DNA of 24,393 nucleotides from positions 1 through 24,393 of the IMG/VR virus record IMGVR_UViG_3300010157_000241. One strand, given 5' to 3'. The DNA comes from a virus. The position numbers and the translations under genes are program-made. The notes under the pieces are model-generated. The model ran no database searches, had not been told where the DNA came from, and saw only the letters and a list, made by a program, of their open reading frames with translations. Positions 67-24,393 of the stretch are shown in pieces (within the stretch, counting starts at the first letter, position 1; each line of letters begins with the position of its first letter).

Positions 67-888
67 ATGAGCGAAAATCCCCTTAAGCAGTATTTTAGAA
101 GACCTGCCATTTATTTAAAATTACCCAGTAATGGTCAAGGTTATCCGCCGGGAGTAATAGACATGCCTGAATCAGGTGATCTACCAATTTATCCAATGAC
201 TGCTATTGACGAGATTACTGCCAGAACACCAGATGCTCTGTTTAACGGCACAGCAGTTGTTGAAATCATTAAAAGTTGTATTCCTAATATCAAAGATCCG
301 TGGACTATGTTTAGTACAGATTTAGATGCTGCCTTAATAGCTGTCAAAGCTGCATCTAACGGAAATGATTTAGAGATGGAAAGCGAATGCCCTGAGTGTA
401 AAGAAACAGGCAAATACGGCATTAACCTAGCTGGCATGTTAACTAAGTTAACTTCGGGTGATTATACTGTCGAACTAAATGTAAACGATTTATACTTTAA
501 GTTTAGACCTTTATATTATAAAGAGATGAACGACATCAATCTTAGACAGTTTGAAGTTCAAAAAAATATGGTTGTAACCGAAAATGATTCAGATGAAGTA
601 AAAGCAAAGAAAAATCAAGAGACTCTTAGACTTTTTACCGATATAACAATAGATGTAATATCAAAAACGATAGAATACATAAAGACCCCGGTTGGTATTG
701 TTAGAGATACGGCGCATATTGCAGACTTCTTAAGAAACTGCGACAGACTTACTTTTAATAAGTTAAGAGATTACTCTATTGAACTTAAGGATAAAACAGA
801 AATGCCCCCGTTAGACATTTCATGTGTAAATTGCAGTCACCCATATAGCACAAAATTCACATTAAACGTCACTGATTTTTTCGGCTAA
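67..888 (+). CDS. 26: gp26-like baseplate hub assembly protein
   Basis: This 273-residue protein resembles the T4 gp26 baseplate hub family, whose members help assemble the central hub of the baseplate. T4 gp26 is about 208 residues, so this one is longer. An N-terminal segment (residues 10-65) begins RRPAIYLKLPSNGQGYPPG, typical of this family in T4-like phages. Two CxxC pairs, C108/C111 (CPEC) and C253/C256 (CVNC), could bind one zinc ion. The ATG at 67 has a Shine-Dalgarno sequence AAGGA at 55-59, seven bases upstream. The last codons GAT TTT TTC run into a slippery heptamer just before the stop, and the next gene lies in the -1 frame, so a 348-residue fusion may also be made. Family assignment is by sequence pattern; the frameshift is inference. 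Confidence 0.8.
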   Translation: MSENPLKQYFRRPAIYLKLPSNGQGYPPGVIDMPESGDLPIYPMTAIDEITARTPDALFNGTAVVEIIKSCIPNIKDPWTMFSTDLDAALIAVKAASNGNDLEMESECPECKETGKYGINLAGMLTKLTSGDYTVELNVNDLYFKFRPLYYKEMNDINLRQFEVQKNMVVTENDSDEVKAKKNQETLRLFTDITIDVISKTIEYIKTPVGIVRDTAHIADFLRNCDRLTFNKLRDYSIELKDKTEMPPLDISCVNCSHPYSTKFTLNVTDFFG

Positions 889-925
889 AGCTTCTTAATA
901 TGGAGCCTTCTGCCATTAAGAAGCT
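876..925 (+). promoter_or_regulatory. Candidate programmed -1 ribosomal frameshift signal
   Basis: Directly visible: a heptamer T TTT TTC at 876-882 in the correct X XXY YYZ phase for the upstream frame; a 6-base spacer 883-888 that contains the zero-frame TAA stop; and a perfect 11-bp stem, AGCTTCTTAAT (889-899) with ATTAAGAAGCT (915-925), closing a 15-base loop. After slippage the -1 frame reads R-L-K-L-L-N and enters the next gene at its ATG (900) without a stop. The parts and spacing are those of known -1 frameshift sites, including the lambda G/GT tail-chaperone type. The stem could instead hide or expose the downstream start codon, which is the first base of the loop. Confidence 0.65.
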
Positions 926-1112
926 GCTAGATGGCTACGAAAAGGAATGTGAAGATATCAAACGTAACGTCCTTACCATGTCTTGGTATATGAGAGGAGG
1001 GGTTACGTATGAAGATATTTTAAATATGTCTGCATTTGAAAGAGAAGCCATTAATAAAATCATTGAAAATAATTTAGAAACAACGAAAAAAAGTCAGATG
1101 CCTTTCTTCTAA
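900..1112 (+). CDS. Small tail/baseplate assembly partner (gp51-like or chaperone extension)
   Basis: A 70-residue reading frame, mostly helical and charged, with the core SWYMRGGVTYEDILNMS and the end MPFF. Short proteins of this look follow the gp26-like gene in T4-like phages and are sometimes labelled gp51 or hub assembly chaperone. I recognise the pattern but cannot prove homology to T4 gp51, which is much longer. No Shine-Dalgarno sequence precedes the ATG at 900, and that ATG opens the loop of an 11-bp hairpin. The frame is -1 relative to the gp26-like gene and is open back to the slippery site. It may therefore be made mainly as the C-terminal part of a frameshift fusion (272 + 6 + 70 residues), as in lambda gpGT. 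A terminator follows at 1141, so this pair ends its transcript. Confidence 0.6.
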   Translation: MEPSAIKKLLDGYEKECEDIKRNVLTMSWYMRGGVTYEDILNMSAFEREAINKIIENNLETTKKSQMPFF

Positions 1113-1195: not shown

Positions 1196-1624
1196 AGTTG
1201 TACTTCGTACAACTGATTCCTTCGCTCACGCAGTTCGCTCGGCATCATTCTTTTTATTATATGGTCTTTGGGTTGCTCTTTACTATTGCTGCTTTGAGCC
1301 ATGGTAGTGCTATTCAGCACTACCAATGGAAAGGTTTTTGCTCGCCCGTCGCAGATGTTTATCCCCCGTATAACTAGCCAGCCTATGCTGTTATACGCCA
1401 CCGGTTGCTCTGTAAGGTTTTTATTGGGATTGTGTAGTTGAGACGGTGTCTCAGCAACGCACATTCTATAACATCAAAACATCTAGTTATAGACTTGTTC
1501 AGGGTTCGCTAATCGAGGGCCCTGTCGGTGTTCCGTGTTAATATTAACATTAACACGTTTACTCCAGAATCTGCAGGCAACTGGCTACCCAGGCTTGCTC
1601 AAGGAGGATCAGGCAACCCTGATC
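1196..1624 (-). ncRNA. Hairpin-rich G+C island, possible structured RNA (orientation uncertain)
   Basis: No convincing protein gene lies at 1168-1644. I counted about 46% G+C over 1201-1620, well above the neighbouring genes. Perfect stems follow one another: 1196-1203/1207-1214, 1303-1311/1316-1324 (AGCACTACC), 1368-1374/1390-1396, 1439-1444/1448-1453, 1465-1472/1486-1493, 1534-1542/1549-1557, 1581-1584/1589-1592 and 1607-1613/1618-1624. The minus strand is favoured because one stem closes there on a C-GAA-G triloop, and because the minus-strand operon runs into it. A 90-codon minus-strand frame (1192-1464) overlaps the stems; it has no Shine-Dalgarno sequence and no known domain. Candidates include a large phage or mobile-element RNA, an intron remnant, or a short inserted element. 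The identity is not established. Confidence 0.35.
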
Positions 1625-1644
1625 AGACTAATTGTGGTGCTTTA

Positions 1645-2229
1645 TTAGAGAGATGTATGACTTGGTGTCTGTGAAGCTGTGTTGACGGTTAAATATTTAG
1701 AGCTGTTTAGAGATGTAGTATTGGCACCGGAATATGCGGCAAAAATGTCTTTGTTGTGTTTAAAAAAGTTATCAAATTCTAAAATAATCCAATCTTTTTG
1801 ATTAGTACTAGTGTAATACAAGAAGTGATCTGTGACCCACGTATATTTACTTTGTACCGCAATAAAACGACCTTTTCTGTTAAACTTCATAAAAAGCACA
1901 TTAAGATCATCGGGTTCTGCTACCTCCATCATTTGATCTAGCCAACCGTCAAGAACTTTACATTCTCCGGCTAAAACTAAATTAAATGGGAAGTCTGCAT
2001 AAAATTTACATTCTGCATTTAGTTTAGAGAAACTTTCTCCGGGAACAATGTCTCCTTTAAAACTGCGAATTTGACCTTCATGCAATACTTGAGTACGAGA
2101 TTGATTTTTTCCGCCAATATAAGCACCTGATCCCGGAGCCCTAATAAAAGACTCTCCGTATAAATCAGATAGGAACTTAGCGACTTCGCGCTCAAAACCC
2201 GACCCCTTTGCTTTTTGTGGATTAGACAT
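1645..2229 (-). CDS. PD-(D/E)XK nuclease, Holliday junction resolvase-like
   Basis: A 194-residue protein with the layout of the Hjc/RecU-type PD-(D/E)XK nuclease fold. It has an N-terminal helix with acidic residues (GSGFEREVAKFL, E13/E15), the conserved RAPGSGA segment (30-36), the catalytic aspartate in KGDIV (D60), and the ECK motif (E73-C-K75) on the next strand. Such enzymes cut branched DNA. T4 uses an unrelated enzyme, endonuclease VII (gp49), for debranching before packaging, so this could be a functional replacement; that is inference. It is the last gene of the minus-strand 55-47-46 block, starting 37 bases after the gp46 stop. No clear Shine-Dalgarno sequence is seen. The C-terminal 25 residues are Ser/Thr-rich and look disordered. 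Confidence 0.7.
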   Translation of the reverse strand: MSNPQKAKGSGFEREVAKFLSDLYGESFIRAPGSGAYIGGKNQSRTQVLHEGQIRSFKGDIVPGESFSKLNAECKFYADFPFNLVLAGECKVLDGWLDQMMEVAEPDDLNVLFMKFNRKGRFIAVQSKYTWVTDHFLYYTSTNQKDWIILEFDNFFKHNKDIFAAYSGANTTSLNSSKYLTVNTASQTPSHTSL

Positions 2230-2266: not shown

Positions 2267-4033
2267 TTATGACATTTCCCTAGACGAACTGTACGTAGTG
2301 AATCCGCCCTCTTTAACTACTTTCAATATGTTATCAACACGACTAGATAGTTCCTCTCTATGCGAAACTAACCAAATAGATTTATTGCGGCGTCGAGTCA
2401 TATCTTTAAGAATGGACATTGCATTTTCAACGCCAATTGTGTCTAATCCGGAATCGATTAATTCGTCAATGAATATAGTATTGATTGGCGAATATAAATT
2501 TTCCCACACATCTCTAAAAGCAAACGAAAGAGAAAGTATGAGCCTATTCATTTCTCCGCGGCTAAGGTTATAGAAATCAAGTTCCCTACCTAATTCTGTA
2601 ATCTCGACATTTAGATCATTTTGAAACACTACTTGATGCGGCAACCCAATACGATCTAGATAATGAGTCAATCTAGCGTTAAGATATGACAAATTCTGAT
2701 CTATGATCTTTTTACGAACGAAACTATCTTTGTTGGTTAATAGATTTAAAATTAGAGTTTGATGTTCTAATATCTTAGTCAACTGATTAATCGTATCAAA
2801 ACTGACTACCTGCAATGCTTGATTTTCCATTTCGACGATTTGTTCTGCATATGGATCAGTCTCATTGCCTTTATTTTCAATTTGATTTAAAATATTGGTA
2901 ATCTGACTAGAATGCTTAACAGCTTCAGCTTCAGTATCATAATGAGTTTTTGGTGATCGGCCCAATTTACTTAATGCATTTAGTGCAGCAGTGTGTTGAA
3001 CAACTTGTGAATTAAAAGCTAATTCTTGCAATACGGATTCCTGCAGTGCTTTTTCTTTATCGGTTAGAACAGTTAGGTGCTTGTCATCATGAAACTCTTG
3101 ACCACAAGCATAGCATGTATGATTTTTTAAATCTTCAATTTCTTTTTTTAGTTTCGCTATTATCTTATGTTCTTTGGTCTCGTCTGCTTCAGCGCGGGTA
3201 ATAAGTTTTTTTAAGTCATCAATTTGTTTGCGTTTTTCATTGTATACGGTTAAATCTTTGTGTGCTTGCAACTCAAGGTCAATATCAATCTTTGTCAAAT
3301 CATCATACGCTAGCGCCAACTTAGCCAAATCTTCATCGTGTTTAGTTTGCCAAAGCTTTTGTCTACGTTTAGTAGAATCTATTTGTTCTTTAACACGCTT
3401 ATTAGCTTCTTCAATAGCCTTAATATTAAATTCTTCTTGTTGTATAGAATCTTTAGATTCTTTTACTTTTTCTTTAAGCACATCAGCTTTTTCTGAAAGC
3501 AAAGTAATGCCAAGTAACTGCTCGATAACATTTCGCTGGTCATTAGCTTTCATAGCTAAGAATGGTTCACTATAGGTATTAAGAGCAACAGTATGCTTAA
3601 ACATATCCGGCGTCATACCAATAGCTTTTTCTATATGTTCTTGCGTTTCTTTATTTTCACCCTGAGCATCGTCAGTTATTTCTTGCAAATTACTATTAAC
3701 ATAGAACTTTAGAGTGTTTGGTCTACGACCACGCTCAATCTTATATTCAATCCCATTAGCACTGAAATCTAAGGTAACCATCATACCTTTACCGTTAGTA
3801 CGATTGATTAGATTATCTTTTCTAATACTATTAATTGGTGTGCCAAATAACGCATAACTCAACCCTTGAATAAGAGTTGTTTTACCAGTACCATTTCTAG
3901 CACCGTCACCACCTAAGTCTAGATTTTCACCTAAAATTAATGTAAGTTCATGGCTGTCAAAGTTTACTGCTTGTGTAACTTGTCCGATAGACAAGAAATT
4001 ACGTAAAGTTATATTTCTAAGTACGATACTCAT
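2267..4033 (-). CDS. 46: gp46 recombination endonuclease subunit (Rad50/SbcC-type ATPase)
   Basis: A 588-residue SMC-like ATPase, close to T4 gp46 in length (about 560). Walker A is ARNGTGKTT at 45-53. Long coiled-coil arms run from about 175 to 430 and are interrupted by a zinc hook CYAC (C307, C310). The ABC signature is LSRGEMNRLILSLS, Walker B is IFIDEL (D523, E524), and the switch histidine lies in WLVSHREE. With gp47 it forms the nuclease complex that resects DNA ends for recombination-dependent replication and host DNA breakdown. Its ATG overlaps the gp47 stop by four bases (ATGA), so the two subunits are translationally coupled and probably made in balanced amounts. All catalytic motifs are intact. 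Confidence 0.95.
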   Translation of the reverse strand: MSIVLRNITLRNFLSIGQVTQAVNFDSHELTLILGENLDLGGDGARNGTGKTTLIQGLSYALFGTPINSIRKDNLINRTNGKGMMVTLDFSANGIEYKIERGRRPNTLKFYVNSNLQEITDDAQGENKETQEHIEKAIGMTPDMFKHTVALNTYSEPFLAMKANDQRNVIEQLLGITLLSEKADVLKEKVKESKDSIQQEEFNIKAIEEANKRVKEQIDSTKRRQKLWQTKHDEDLAKLALAYDDLTKIDIDLELQAHKDLTVYNEKRKQIDDLKKLITRAEADETKEHKIIAKLKKEIEDLKNHTCYACGQEFHDDKHLTVLTDKEKALQESVLQELAFNSQVVQHTAALNALSKLGRSPKTHYDTEAEAVKHSSQITNILNQIENKGNETDPYAEQIVEMENQALQVVSFDTINQLTKILEHQTLILNLLTNKDSFVRKKIIDQNLSYLNARLTHYLDRIGLPHQVVFQNDLNVEITELGRELDFYNLSRGEMNRLILSLSFAFRDVWENLYSPINTIFIDELIDSGLDTIGVENAMSILKDMTRRRNKSIWLVSHREELSSRVDNILKVVKEGGFTTYSSSREMS

Positions 4034-18855: not shown

Positions 18856-21800
18856 ATGGCAACAGTAATTAGAACATTGGACTTCTTACCCGAGATATTT
18901 CAAACACCCACAAACCAACAGTTTTTGAGTGCAACATTAGATCAATTGGTAAATCCACCAAACCTACAACAGATTCAAGGTTATGTAGGTAATAGATTTG
19001 GATATGGGGTAAATGCTAACGATCATTATGTAACTGAGCCAGACGCCACACGAACAAACTATCAATTAGATCCGGGTGTAGTATTCATTGCTTCGGCAGA
19101 TTCAATTAACCCGCCTGCAGGAACTGCCACAGATTTTATCAGTTATCCCGGAATGCTAAACGCTATTACTACAGCAGGTGGATTAGCTAATAACAATAGT
19201 AGATTGTTTAACTCTCAATTTTATTCTTGGGATTCTTTCACAAACTTAGATCCATTAATTAACTTTAATCAATACTACTGGGCACCACAAGGCTTGCCTG
19301 CTGTTACAGTAGCAGCAGCAACAGTATATGATGCGGCAAGCTATATTGTGACTCCTGAAGCAGACGGCTATAAAATTTCTGTAGCAGGTACAGGTTTTGG
19401 TAGCATTAATCCTACTCTTACCTTTATTAGAGGTGGCACCTATACGTTTTATGTTAATCAATCTACTCAATTTTGGATTCAAGGAGAGCCCGGTGTATTA
19501 GTTGCTAACCCATCAAATCCTAGTCAAAATGTTCGGCAGATATATGGTGTAGAAAATAACGGTGCTAAAAACGGAACTGTAACATTTACAGTACCCGCTG
19601 CTGATGCACAAAGTCAATATAGTTCTTTACAGGGAAATAATTTAGTAAGTGTAGTTAGTAATGTGCCGTATCAGGCTATCAATGGTCAGCTAGTATCATC
19701 TTTGCGTGGTATCGACGGAGTAACATCGTTAAATGGCTTGACATTAATGTTCTATAATACTGGTATACCAAATGAAGAAGGATTTACTGGTAGTTTCTTT
19801 GACAACGGTCAAAATGGACAAGCATACGATACTAACGACAATACGCTTACAACCCCGCAATCAATTAACATTACTGCAACAGCAACATCTGGCAATTTGA
19901 TAACCTGTAGTTCAACAGCGAACTTAGTAGTAAATCAAGCAGTAACATTTACTGGAACTGCATTTGGTACTTTAATTCCTTCTACATCAAATAATGATGT
20001 CTTGTATTTTGTTTCTAGCATTACTTCTCCTACACAATTTACAGTAGCTCTACAATTGAATGGATCTGAAGTAGTAATGCAAGATGCTGCAGGATCTATG
20101 ACTTGCAATATTAATCAAGGGCTATATCAACAAGGATATATTAGCCAAGTAAATTTCAATTTCTATAAGATTACCTATATAGGAGACCCATCTAATCCTA
20201 TTATTAGTCTAAGCGTCGCCAGCGCAATACCGGTCAATCAAATTATTTCCGCAGTTTATGGTAACACCTATGGTGGCGCACGCTTCTTCTTAGATCAATA
20301 TGGCAACATAGAAGAAATACCGTATATTTCAGCACCACTGAATACCCTTTATTATCAAGATGGTAGTAATCCAAATGCGGTAGGTGTTATAAATCTTATC
20401 GAAGCTAATATTTCTAATCAATTGAACGTAGATACTCAAATATTAGGTAAACCAAATTTTACATCAAGCAATGGTGTGGCATTTACTAACGGATTAAAAG
20501 TACAGTTTAATGGGGATGTAATCCCCACAAGTTACTTAAGTGGGCAGTATTATGTGCAGGGTGTTGGAATAGCAATCCAACTACTTCCAGTAACGGACTT
20601 TTCAGTTCCTGAACCATTCACCGGTAGTATTTATAACCTATGGGACTCTGCTCATTGGGATATTGATAATTTTGATGACACCCTTTATATTCCTACAGTT
20701 CCCGACTATATCACAATTGCTAGAGAGGCATTGAATAGAAACCCATGGTCACGCAGTAATCGCTGGTTTCATATTGATGTGATCAAGGCCACCGCACAGT
20801 ATAACAATAATCCAGCGATTGTTACATCTTACGCTACTCAAGAAAATAAAGCGGCTAGACCAATTATAGAATTTTATCCAAACTTAGAACTGTTTAATTA
20901 TGGAACAGTGGGCGTAGGCGCAATTGACTTTATAGACTTTAGAACTACTGATTGTTTGAATCTAGTAGCAGGTCAACCTGTGTATTATCCAGATGTTGAT
21001 GTGTATACAAATTATAATGCAACTATTAATAATCCCTTTACAACTACTGCTATATTTACTACGCCTACTAATATAAATGGTAGTACTTCGTATGCACGAA
21101 TGTTTGCAGTTACTGTTAACTCAGCTGGATTGTTTGTAGCGGTTGGGTATGATAGTAACTATTATCCATTATATGCGACATCACTAGATGGTAGCACTTG
21201 GACTACTCCTGCACTAATGAATGGCAGTACCTCTGTTGCACGAATGACTTCAGTTACAGTTAATTCTGATGGCTTGTTTGTAGCAGTTGGATATGGTGGC
21301 AGTAACTATCCAATCTACGCCACATCTAGTGATGGTAGCACTTGGACTACTCCAGCAGTAATTAACGGTAGCACTACTAGTGCAACAATGACCTCAGTTG
21401 CAGTTAACTCAGCCGGACTATTCGTAGCGATCGGGTATGATAGTAACTCTTATCCATTATATGCCACATCACTAGATGGTAGCACTTGGACTACTCCTGT
21501 TTATATGAATGGTAGCACCGCTGCTGCACAACTATATTCAGTAGCAGTCAATGCTGCTGGCTTGTTTGTAGCGGTCGGGTACGATAACAACTATTATCCA
21601 TTATACGCCACATCACTAGATGGTAGCACTTGGACTACTCCTGCACTAATGAATGGCAGTACTGTCCCTGTATACATGCAGGCTATAACGGTTAATTCAT
21701 TTGGGTTATTTGTAGCAGTTGGTTCTGATCAATCAACACGTTTACCTAAATATGCTACATCAACTGATGGTAGAACTTGGACCACACCCGCTAACATGAA

Positions 21801-24393
21801 TAGCAGTAATCCCGCTGCTAACATAAATGCAGTCACCGTAAGCAGTGATGGATTGTTTGTAGTAGTTGGAAGTTATCTTAGTGGTTCTGGTAATGCTTTA
21901 TATACAACATCAGTAGATGGAAGCACTTGGACAGCTTTTACAACAATGGGCGGCAGTGCTACTACGCAAACTCCGTTTGGGGTCGCAGTTAACTCTGATG
22001 GACTAATTGTAGCAGTAGGCTTCAATGCCAGCGATACCCCTATCTACGCTGATGCAATAATAACACGAATTGCTGATACCACCACTACTGTAATTGTACC
22101 GGCAAACGCAGTAACTGGCACCTTTGTAGTGGGCATGTACATTAATGATTCATTAAATATATTGCCACCAAATACTCAAATTACTAACATTGAGGGCACC
22201 ACAACATTAACTCTTACAGTATCATGGTTGAATCCTGCAATAATCGTAGGTGAATCAAAGATTTCTATTGTAGCTGATCCTAAAAGTAACACTAATTACG
22301 CACTATTTTCAGGAGCCAGAGTTCTATTTGCAGCCGATCCAAAAGAAAATACAAAAATATATGTTGTAAGTTTCTCTACAATATCAGAAGGGTCTACTCC
22401 GGTTATAACTCTTTCAGAAGCTCCAAATGGTAATCTTTTAGAAAATAATGTACTAGCAGTAATTAGAGGGTATAATTATCAAGGTTATAGTTTTTGGTAT
22501 AACGGATTAAAATGGATAAAAGCACAACAAAAAATTACTGATAATCAAGCTCCTCTATTCGATGTGTTTGATTCTAGTGGAATAAGTTTCGGTGACCGTG
22601 CATATTATGTAGGCACCTCATTTAAAGGCTCAAAATTATTTGATTATGCGGTTGGCACCGGACCAGATGACCCAGTGTTGGGATTCCCGTTAAGTTATAG
22701 TTCGGTCAACAATATAGGCGATATAAGTTTTGATGTAACGTTCAATTCTGATACTTTTACATACGTGAACAGTGCTGTTCCCGTTACTAAAAATATTAAT
22801 ACAGGATTTGTTTACAATACTATTGGATTGCATGACCACACTAGGCTATTAGGTTGGCAAACAGCAGTAGGTCCTAGTGTACAATATCAAATTTTTGAAT
22901 TTAATTATGTACGAAATTATGTAACGCCAAATAATACTTTTCAATTAGATGTTGCACCAATAGCAATAGGTGTAGAACCTTGGCCAACATTAGAAGTTTA
23001 TGTAAACAATATTTTACAACCATCTACTAATTACACTGTTACGACTACAAGTACCACTACCACTGTAGTAATTAATATTCCTAACAGCATAACACACACA
23101 CTAGTTCAAGTTTTAATATTAAGTGACCAAGTGAGTAATACTGCATTCTATACAATACCCATCAACTTAAGTAATAACCCGTTCAATACTGATATTACAA
23201 CTACAAATGTTGGTGATATCAGAAGGCAATATGCTAGTATCTTCAATAATTGTCCAAATACTACTGGTCAACTACTAGGTCCTAACAACTACAGAGATTT
23301 AGGCAATCTAGTACCATATGGCAATGCTATTATACAAAATAGTGCATCATTAGTATTGCCGGCAATATTCCTGCGTAATTTAAATTACAATATATTTGAT
23401 TCTTTGGCTTATAATAGCAAGAAATATGTTGAATACAAAAACTTAATTGTTTACACAGTTAATAATTATCCGTTCGATCAGCGGTATGATCCTGCCTATG
23501 TGTTGAATACTGCAATAGACCTCATAACCGCAACTAAAGATAATTCTCAATCATTCTTTTGGTCTGACATGATTCCTGCTAAAGCACCGTATGCATCTAA
23601 TACATACACCTTTAATAGTAATCTACAACAAACAATTTATCCTTTAACACAGACTTATAATTTTGAAACAGCAAATTACAATGGCGTATTAGTGTATGTA
23701 GCTAGAACAATTAGAGGATTGACAACTACTAAACAGCTAGTTATGAATCAAGAATATACCGTAAGTACAACAGCACCGTCATTAAGAATCACCATTGATT
23801 TAATCCCCGGTGATGTTGTAACAATTAATGAGTATAATCAAACTTATGGTAGCTATGTACCAAATACTCCTACTAAATTAGGGCTATATCCTGCATTTAT
23901 TCCCGAAGTTGTATTAGATAATGGTTACCAACAGCCAACGTATTTTATTAAAGGACACGATGGTTCATATAATAAATTGTATGGTGATTATATTGCTGCT
24001 ACCGATACTCTAGTAGACTTTAGAGATCAGGCACTATTAGAATTTGAAAAGCGTGTTTATAACAATCTTAAGTTAAGTAATACAATTCCAGTTCAAGCAT
24101 ACGAAGTGACTCCGGGTTTCTTTAGAAACACTGGCTACTCGTATGATGAATGGTTAGAAATCTATACGCCTGGATTCTTAAATTGGGTAGGACAAAATAG
24201 GTTAAACTACCAGCAACAATTCTATGATGCCAATAATCAGTTTACTTGGAATTATAAAAATACTACCAATAAAGTAGATAACACATTAATATCTCCTGGA
24301 TACTGGAGAGGAGTGTATAGTTACTTTTATGATACAACAACACCTGAATCTACACCATGGGAAATGCTAGGCTACGTTAATGAACCAATTTGG
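18856..24393 (+). CDS. Giant gp7-like baseplate wedge protein, partial (runs off window)
   Basis: An open frame of 1846 codons from the ATG at 18856 to the window end, with no stop. The N-terminus (RTLDFLPEIFQTPTNQQFLS, NRFGYGVNANDHYVTEPDA, YQLDPGVVF, FYSWDSFTNLDPLINFNQYY) is typical of the very large structural proteins that follow gp6 in T4-like phages; by position it is the gp7 counterpart. T4 gp7 is 1032 residues, so this is much larger. A cupredoxin-like strand segment (about 177-225, LTFIRGGTYTFYV) and a small beta domain (about 336-425) follow. Residues about 731-1067 are a seven-unit Asp-box propeller. The conserved chain then resumes (GMYINDSLNILPPNTQI, GARVLFAADPKENTKIYVV, NQAPLFDVFDSSGISFGD). 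The gp7 label rests on gene order and pattern, not on demonstrated homology. Confidence 0.75.
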   Translation, partial: MATVIRTLDFLPEIFQTPTNQQFLSATLDQLVNPPNLQQIQGYVGNRFGYGVNANDHYVTEPDATRTNYQLDPGVVFIASADSINPPAGTATDFISYPGMLNAITTAGGLANNNSRLFNSQFYSWDSFTNLDPLINFNQYYWAPQGLPAVTVAAATVYDAASYIVTPEADGYKISVAGTGFGSINPTLTFIRGGTYTFYVNQSTQFWIQGEPGVLVANPSNPSQNVRQIYGVENNGAKNGTVTFTVPAADAQSQYSSLQGNNLVSVVSNVPYQAINGQLVSSLRGIDGVTSLNGLTLMFYNTGIPNEEGFTGSFFDNGQNGQAYDTNDNTLTTPQSINITATATSGNLITCSSTANLVVNQAVTFTGTAFGTLIPSTSNNDVLYFVSSITSPTQFTVALQLNGSEVVMQDAAGSMTCNINQGLYQQGYISQVNFNFYKITYIGDPSNPIISLSVASAIPVNQIISAVYGNTYGGARFFLDQYGNIEEIPYISAPLNTLYYQDGSNPNAVGVINLIEANISNQLNVDTQILGKPNFTSSNGVAFTNGLKVQFNGDVIPTSYLSGQYYVQGVGIAIQLLPVTDFSVPEPFTGSIYNLWDSAHWDIDNFDDTLYIPTVPDYITIAREALNRNPWSRSNRWFHIDVIKATAQYNNNPAIVTSYATQENKAARPIIEFYPNLELFNYGTVGVGAIDFIDFRTTDCLNLVAGQPVYYPDVDVYTNYNATINNPFTTTAIFTTPTNINGSTSYARMFAVTVNSAGLFVAVGYDSNYYPLYATSLDGSTWTTPALMNGSTSVARMTSVTVNSDGLFVAVGYGGSNYPIYATSSDGSTWTTPAVINGSTTSATMTSVAVNSAGLFVAIGYDSNSYPLYATSLDGSTWTTPVYMNGSTAAAQLYSVAVNAAGLFVAVGYDNNYYPLYATSLDGSTWTTPALMNGSTVPVYMQAITVNSFGLFVAVGSDQSTRLPKYATSTDGRTWTTPANMNSSNPAANINAVTVSSDGLFVVVGSYLSGSGNALYTTSVDGSTWTAFTTMGGSATTQTPFGVAVNSDGLIVAVGFNASDTPIYADAIITRIADTTTTVIVPANAVTGTFVVGMYINDSLNILPPNTQITNIEGTTTLTLTVSWLNPAIIVGESKISIVADPKSNTNYALFSGARVLFAADPKENTKIYVVSFSTISEGSTPVITLSEAPNGNLLENNVLAVIRGYNYQGYSFWYNGLKWIKAQQKITDNQAPLFDVFDSSGISFGDRAYYVGTSFKGSKLFDYAVGTGPDDPVLGFPLSYSSVNNIGDISFDVTFNSDTFTYVNSAVPVTKNINTGFVYNTIGLHDHTRLLGWQTAVGPSVQYQIFEFNYVRNYVTPNNTFQLDVAPIAIGVEPWPTLEVYVNNILQPSTNYTVTTTSTTTTVVINIPNSITHTLVQVLILSDQVSNTAFYTIPINLSNNPFNTDITTTNVGDIRRQYASIFNNCPNTTGQLLGPNNYRDLGNLVPYGNAIIQNSASLVLPAIFLRNLNYNIFDSLAYNSKKYVEYKNLIVYTVNNYPFDQRYDPAYVLNTAIDLITATKDNSQSFFWSDMIPAKAPYASNTYTFNSNLQQTIYPLTQTYNFETANYNGVLVYVARTIRGLTTTKQLVMNQEYTVSTTAPSLRITIDLIPGDVVTINEYNQTYGSYVPNTPTKLGLYPAFIPEVVLDNGYQQPTYFIKGHDGSYNKLYGDYIAATDTLVDFRDQALLEFEKRVYNNLKLSNTIPVQAYEVTPGFFRNTGYSYDEWLEIYTPGFLNWVGQNRLNYQQQFYDANNQFTWNYKNTTNKVDNTLISPGYWRGVYSYFYDTTTPESTPWEMLGYVNEPIW
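21046..22056 (+). repeat. Seven tandem ~144-bp units encoding Asp-box beta-propeller blades
   Basis: Seven units carry the strand VxVNSxGLFVAVG, with the GLF/GLI codon at 21127, 21271, 21415, 21559, 21703, 21850 and 22000, so the period is 144 bases (48 residues), rising to 147 and 150. Six units end in an Asp-box SxDGSTW, with the Ser codon at 21181, 21325, 21469, 21613, 21760 and 21910. The seventh lacks its Asp-box, while a TTPTNINGS half-unit precedes the first, as expected for ring closure between first and last blade. DNA copies are very similar: 21159-21230 and 21591-21662 differ at 2 of 72 bases. Asp-box repeats are known in sialidases and other propellers; no sialidase catalytic arginine triad is evident. 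Confidence 0.85.

Follow-up and report, generated by a model that had tools for sequence, protein, structure and literature searches.

We show here that the gap between two convergent gene clusters of a virus contig encodes, on its minus strand, a conserved structured RNA (positions 1196-1625) and is not spacer DNA. In our judgement this element is likely to be a stand-alone folded RNA that would be made as a discrete transcript and act in trans during infection, and that would share its ancestry with RNAs of the Rak2-like jumbo phages and of the Polynucleobacter-1 group. The source record is a virus contig of 24,393 bases, the whole of which is called the window below. Four lines of evidence speak for the original prediction of an unrecognised structured phage RNA: covariation, strand bias, a lack of coding and conservation across a wide range of phages.

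Genomic setting

On one side the RNA faces a T4-type baseplate hub gene (67-888, plus strand; PF12322, PHROG 150) and a small ORF of 70 aa (900-1112, plus strand) located between hub gene and RNA. On the other side, codirectional with the RNA and upstream of it, is a PDDEXK nuclease gene (1645-2229, minus strand; Pfam PF24608, PHROG 244), beyond which lies a gp46/SbcC-like gene (2267-4033, minus strand); with gp47/SbcD and a late sigma factor these form the minus-strand operon next to the RNA. The order of the slot is baseplate hub, small ORF, gap with RNA, nuclease and gp46, and on the RNA's own strand no ORF follows in the window before the convergent hub genes. The site had been likened to that of gene 45 downstream of gene 46 in T4; the downstream neighbour of the gp46-like gene is the PDDEXK nuclease instead. 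Elsewhere in the window, an open-ended ORF of 1846 aa (18856-24393) contains a repeat, in several copies, of the form 'NGSTS.ARM.SVTVNS.GLFVAVGYDS..YP.YATSLDGSTWTTP', which looks propeller-like by eye.

An inverted-repeat search found 15 pairs within 1100-1720, among them perfect stems of 10 bp (1302-1311/1316-1325, loop 4), 8 bp (1196-1203/1207-1214, loop 3) and 7 bp (1607-1613/1618-1624), and 12-nt arms at 1534-1545/1546-1557 with a 92% match. The predicted hairpin-dense island is borne out by these pairs, and its proposed edges, 1196 and 1624, coincide with the first and last conserved helices. The G+C content is indeed raised, at 44-45.5% in 200-base windows between 1201 and 1700, and the flanking genes, put at a third or less, lie mostly at 30-40%, so that part of the claim was slightly too low. 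Folding z-scores were -4.85 on the plus and -2.96 on the minus strand, and none of 100 shuffles was as stable as the native sequence on either strand; the stems exceed chance, in line with what had been proposed, and conservation and covariation settle the point.

Conservation within one jumbo-phage clade

Protein-guided searches with nuclease and hub gene queries gathered 107 IMG/VR loci; with the window record counted in, nhmmer with 1121-1660 matched 93 of 108 loci, and a scan with an RNA pattern found at least 120 stretches. At E<1e-5 the profile matched 212 of 230 fetched loci, from which 28 truncated matches were dropped to leave 184 of full length, 130 of them unique and 89 at less than 93% identity, with a pairwise mean of 0.66. 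In every one of 11 contigs (155-524 kb, picked because they contain the RNA) there was one strong match, all further matches having E>=0.19. The window RNA pattern had zero matches in a genome set of 84,980 species, and blastn with the window RNA and relatives of lineages 1 and 3 had zero matches in 50,697 phage records. One clade of jumbo myoviruses keeps the window RNA as a single-copy gene at a fixed place.

Covariation, strand and coding

Conservation in nhmmer and blastn comparisons, covariation and the balance of G-U over A-C pairs together define the RNA at 1196-1625, with its 5' end near 1625-1637. Against a null built from a GTR tree and 20 simulated alignments of the 89 sequences, 19 column pairs exceeded every simulated value. 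Seventeen of these fall on helices, including three pseudoknot pairs, and the other two are offset by one from helix pairs; the covariation analysis of related contigs that had been suggested thus came out positive. When 48 of the 89 homologs were aligned, 38 of 53 named pairs showed two-sided change, in 435 cells; shuffles gave 138 such cells and slid controls 40-75. Helix 9 is misregistered in this alignment (25.9% paired). Over 1366-1531, RNAalifold gave 29 of 39 pairs with two-sided change.

The strand is minus, because in the helices G-U outnumbers A-C on the minus sense (66 versus 21 in the core). A plus-strand RNA, despite its better z-score, was rejected: in the helices common to both strand predictions, that strand has 148 A-C and 63 G-U. 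A protein gene was rejected as well. The 90-codon frame at 1192-1464, protein-level selection on which had been named as grounds for refutation, is open in one of the 89 homologs, and substitutions relative to four relatives are even across its codon positions, in keeping with the initial view that no gene is supported here.

Anatomy of the RNA

Read 5' to 3' on the minus strand, the RNA begins with a terminal hairpin (1607-1625; 1607-1613 with 1618-1624/5), followed by a helix (1562-1606) in which 1562-1569 pairs with 1599-1606. This helix holds the sense sequence CCUCCUUGAG (1597-1606), found in 62 of the 89 homologs and complementary to a Shine-Dalgarno sequence; a role as anti-Shine-Dalgarno mimic was set aside, and the match is recorded as an observation only. 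After a variable hairpin (1534-1557) comes the junction, closed by a helix of 1400-1403 with 1526-1529 (RNAalifold, helix 1 of the 48-homolog alignment), which bounds three arms (1400-1529). Arm B (1500-1524) is a hairpin of 1500-1508 with 1514-1524, 100% paired in 48 homologs; arm A (1461-1498) shows two-sided change in 11 of 11 pairs, and its loop forms pseudoknot 1; arm C (1404-1458) is formed by 1404-1409 with 1453-1458 (GUUGC...GCAAC) and has the 5' strand of pseudoknot 2 inside it.

Downstream of the junction, arm D (1367-1397; 1367-1378 with 1387-1397) has two-sided change in seven of seven outer pairs and is followed by the 3' strands of the two pseudoknots. The 5' strand of pseudoknot 2 (1426-1430, sense AUCCC) pairs with approximately 1361-1365, directly before the 3' strand of pseudoknot 1. 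Its pair 1429-1363 is significant and is off by one base in register in the window itself, and 68.7% of the cells of this pseudoknot are paired in the 48-homolog alignment. In pseudoknot 1, the 5' strand (1477-1484, sense AGAUGUUU) pairs with 1353-1360 (sense AAACAUCU), with covariation that is significant for 1482-1355 and 1480-1357, the pair 1478-1359 coming next at E 0.1. The 3' domain consists of a near-invariant hairpin, GGUAGUGC...GCACUACC (1300-1328), a penultimate hairpin (1215-1246) with a loop of the GAACGAAGUGA type in relatives, and a last conserved hairpin of 8 bp with the triloop GAA (1196-1214), which has three significant covarying pairs.

The transcript probably runs on to a 10-bp terminator-like hairpin at 1141-1166, which lies between the convergent transcripts, has its T-run on the plus strand and may act in both directions. 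A GATAAATGAATAnTTACGG-like motif is conserved in many homologs of the window family, some 25-60 nt past the last hairpin. Ahead of the 5' hairpin, homologs carry a position-fixed A/T motif, (T)AAAAATTnGTT (1627-1637, minus strand), which is weak in the window itself; TATAAAAA stands at exactly -14 in 13 of the 89 homologs, against zero in the downstream control stretches. The motif may be a promoter element similar to a late-type one, ATAAATA, reported for phage CBB. The window gave no sigma-70 promoter match.

Related RNAs in Rak2-like phages

The cultured jumbo phages 121Q, CBB, GAP32, XbC2 and SNUABM_44 share the slot order and have an unannotated gap at the hub slot; Munch has an extra annotated gene between gap and nuclease, and in Kaldavass small hypothetical ORFs are annotated inside the gap. 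The element is present in all eight Rak2-like genomes searched, in four places (121Q) or five, each place being a set of pieces grouped by us. These paralogous structured RNAs, four to five per genome, are unannotated (loci L230, L239 and L248-L253, with copies L240-L283). In a core alignment of 23 sequences under 97% identity, drawn from 31 unique ones, pseudoknot 1 is paired in 99.4% of cells with two-sided change in six of seven pairs, pseudoknot 2 in 100% with two-sided change in four of five, and arm C in 100%.

A TATAAT lies upstream of each of the 31 unique copies, its shared context reading by eye as TG(G/A)(G/A)AC...TGnTATAAT-like. In 121Q the nuclease beside the hub copy is transcribed away from the RNA, which therefore needs its own promoter there, and no same-strand gene comes after the RNA. 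The non-hub copies of 121Q, three of its four copies in total, directly precede ORFs, as by eye do others of the Rak2-like non-hub copies. The nuclease itself differs between lineages, being PDDEXK in the lineage of the window (1645-2229) and an annotated endonuclease VII in the opposite orientation in 121Q (L239:3143-3634) and CBB. This difference is a nuclease swap at a fixed locus.

A freshwater lineage and the Polynucleobacter-1 motif

A core motif derived from three freshwater loci (L097, L099 and L101) was found on at least 120 viral stretches or contigs, and defines a third lineage. The motif also occurs on L418 (CAINOI010000056.1), a contig of 4.5 kb placed in a Bacteroidetes MAG by binning, which is perhaps a mis-binned phage contig. 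The alignment of this lineage went from 113 matches with full flanks through 108 unique to 86 sequences kept below 92% identity. Of the 587 cells of pseudoknot 1, 565 are paired, and exchanges there include GC to AU (22) and CG to UA (9); in pseudoknot 2, four of five pairs are formed in 86/86 sequences and the fifth in 62/86, one pair occurring as CG 37, GC 34, UA 8 and AU 4 times.

The 5' part of the lineage-3 RNAs is matched by the Rfam model of Polynucleobacter-1, RF01718 (121, 120 and 82 bits in L290, L294 and L299), which also scores above cut-off in L097, L098, L099 and L101 and below it in L096. The model has zero matches in the window record and in seven cultured genomes searched, and none in three Rak2-like genomes searched. 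In L097, L098, L099 and L101 the matches fall within the gap beside the hub gene and run antisense to that gene, the slot and strand being identical to those of the window RNA; the use of this slot as a criterion for Polynucleobacter-1 is our own observation and has not been published. In the loci that it matches, Polynucleobacter-1 forms the 5' domain of a longer RNA, the likely owners of which are jumbo phages.

In Weinberg et al. 2010 (PMC2864571), the entry for Polynucleobacter-1 gives it as a probable RNA of Burkholderiales and fresh water, with a probable cis-regulatory role (marked 'cis-reg? y'), and that entry names no phage. Among the matches listed in a literature search, only this paper names the motif; further literature searches showed, among the matches listed, no paper on the window RNA, a result that does not establish its absence from print.

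Common descent

A double-pseudoknot layout, in which the loop of arm A pairs 3' of arm C and a strand of arm C pairs just 5' of that site, is backed by separate covariation in three lineages: that of the window, the Rak2-like phages and freshwater lineage 3. The window and Rak2-like RNAs also have in common a short CGUUGC...ACAGnGCAACC. Covariance models of one lineage gave no match to the core of another. A generic descriptor of the four-helix layout, scored as the number of shuffles out of 100 that were at least as good, gave 0 for the window and L098, 5 for Munch, 6 for L106, 20 for L097, 21 for L096, 22 for L102, 31 for 121Q, 32 for L107, 51 for L101 and 58 for L099; stretches from PA5oct, Phosso, Atu_ph07 and SCTP-2 scored 0 to 23, the plus strand of the window 5 and four control stretches 14, 56, 80 and 100, and the descriptor fails to separate most single sequences from shuffles.

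Because the covariance models do not cross lineages and the descriptor is weak, common descent is a matter of inference rather than of statistics. Layout, slot and strand, together with the short motif in the window and Rak2-like RNAs, suggest that the RNAs of the window, the Rak2-like phages and the Polynucleobacter-1 group share one ancestor. We lean towards the broader view that several jumbo-phage lineages have retained one ancient two-pseudoknot RNA at their hub-gp46 junction, that it was amplified to four to five promoter-bearing copies in Rak2-like phages and that it had been seen earlier only as the Polynucleobacter-1 fragment. If this is true, jumbo phages would have in it a core functional RNA on a par with a conserved morphogenesis or replication gene.

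At more distant hub loci (L096-L103 and L107) the corresponding region holds gaps of 385-798 nt, and a marine pair, L102 and L107 (six contigs), appears by eye to have the same layout. The gaps of PA5oct (L227:6470-7132) and Phosso (L226:6987-8000) in the same region fold very strongly, the z-score for PA5oct being -9.1; in PA5oct, Phosso, Atu_ph07 and SCTP-2 the core was not recognised.

Discussion

We propose that 1196-1625 is the minus-strand gene of a stand-alone folded RNA, some 430-490 nt long. Two pseudoknots tie its three-arm junction into a compact core: arm A pairs through its loop with a strand downstream of arm D, and the inner strand of arm C pairs immediately ahead of that site. 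Such an RNA would be a discrete transcript that acts in trans during infection and not on a neighbouring gene, probably with a protein partner, as a ribonucleoprotein or an RNA assembly. Counted against this reading are the better folding z-score of the plus strand, the missing sigma-70 promoter match in the window and the non-hub Rak2-like copies located just upstream of ORFs.

The arrangement in the window, where the RNA is directly downstream of the codirectional PDDEXK gene and ahead of the terminator-like hairpin, would also suit the view that the nuclease-gp46-gp47-sigma operon ends in a structured 3' UTR, protecting or regulating the mRNA in cis and either processed free or not. We regard this as unlikely: the Rak2-like nuclease next to the RNA is oriented the opposite way, further copies lie at unrelated places, and two pseudoknots and a junction would exceed the needs of stabilising a 3' end. 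A cis-acting riboswitch-like leader, the role suggested by the discoverers of Polynucleobacter-1 with their 'cis-reg? y' (Weinberg et al. 2010, PMC2864571), is very unlikely for the window RNA. A leader lies 5' of a same-strand gene. In the window, the hub gene and the small ORF run towards the RNA, and here, as in the hub slot of those Rak2-like records that were inspected, the RNA faces a convergent operon, with no same-strand ORF after it. The close spacing of non-hub Rak2-like copies to the ORFs they precede speaks for a leader, and that position would also suit such a role there.

Dense hairpins adjoining recombination genes could in principle mark a self-splicing intron remnant, a transposon guide RNA or a DNA-level element of replication or recombination, all of which we consider most improbable. 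Rfam returned no intron, HEARO or related match, and a scan of the seven neighbouring frames showed neither an interrupted gene nor an IscB/TnpB-type nuclease, which leaves the suggested intron remnant and guide RNA without backing. DNA cruciforms are opposed by the one-strand bias of G-U over A-C and by pseudoknot covariation, which point to RNA. In the hub slot a 5' leader is disfavoured because of the convergent operon ahead of the RNA. A 3' UTR may apply to the window, but the 121Q nuclease points away and leaves no place for one there; a stand-alone trans-acting RNA is therefore the most likely explanation.

Phages of 155-524 kb have long retained a large folded RNA, which implies that their infection cycle includes an RNA-based step, one left unassigned by the searches made here. 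Since look-alike RNAs lie unannotated in E. coli and Salmonella phages, deletion, expression and structure work is directly possible. The orphan motif Polynucleobacter-1, for its part, gains a likely owner, the jumbo phages, and a larger context.

Comparison with known RNAs

No Rfam family matches the window at gathering, which set aside a known Rfam RNA, and GOLLD, ROOL, HEARO and group I and II introns, all put forward as candidates, are absent even at E<=5; GOLLD, ROOL and OLE also have no match in 14 related loci. A tRNA or tmRNA, the latter likewise put forward, was rejected, ARAGORN finding 0 genes in the window. A short stretch of the Rak2-like core bears what we take by eye to be a resemblance to bacterial RNase P RNA. 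This likeness was dismissed as coincidence: the RNase P models gave no match in the window region at E<=5, nor in eight related loci at E<=10.

The closest likenesses are with other phage RNAs. Those of 121Q, CBB, GAP32, Munch, XbC2 and SNUABM_44 have the same slot and strand as the window RNA, arm A with pseudoknot 1, the GUUGC...ACAGnGCAAC arm and pseudoknot 2 directly 5' of pseudoknot 1, but differ in having four to five copies per genome, a length of about 600-700 nt and different 5' and 3' domains. The 141-nt Polynucleobacter-1 model stops before the pseudoknotted core, and it is the core downstream of the motif in the lineage-3 RNAs that has the double-pseudoknot layout of the window RNA. 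In size and layout, GOLLD, ROOL and OLE differ from the window RNA. They nevertheless share its general character as large, elaborate non-coding RNAs, and some of them are linked to phages (cf. PMC12286853).
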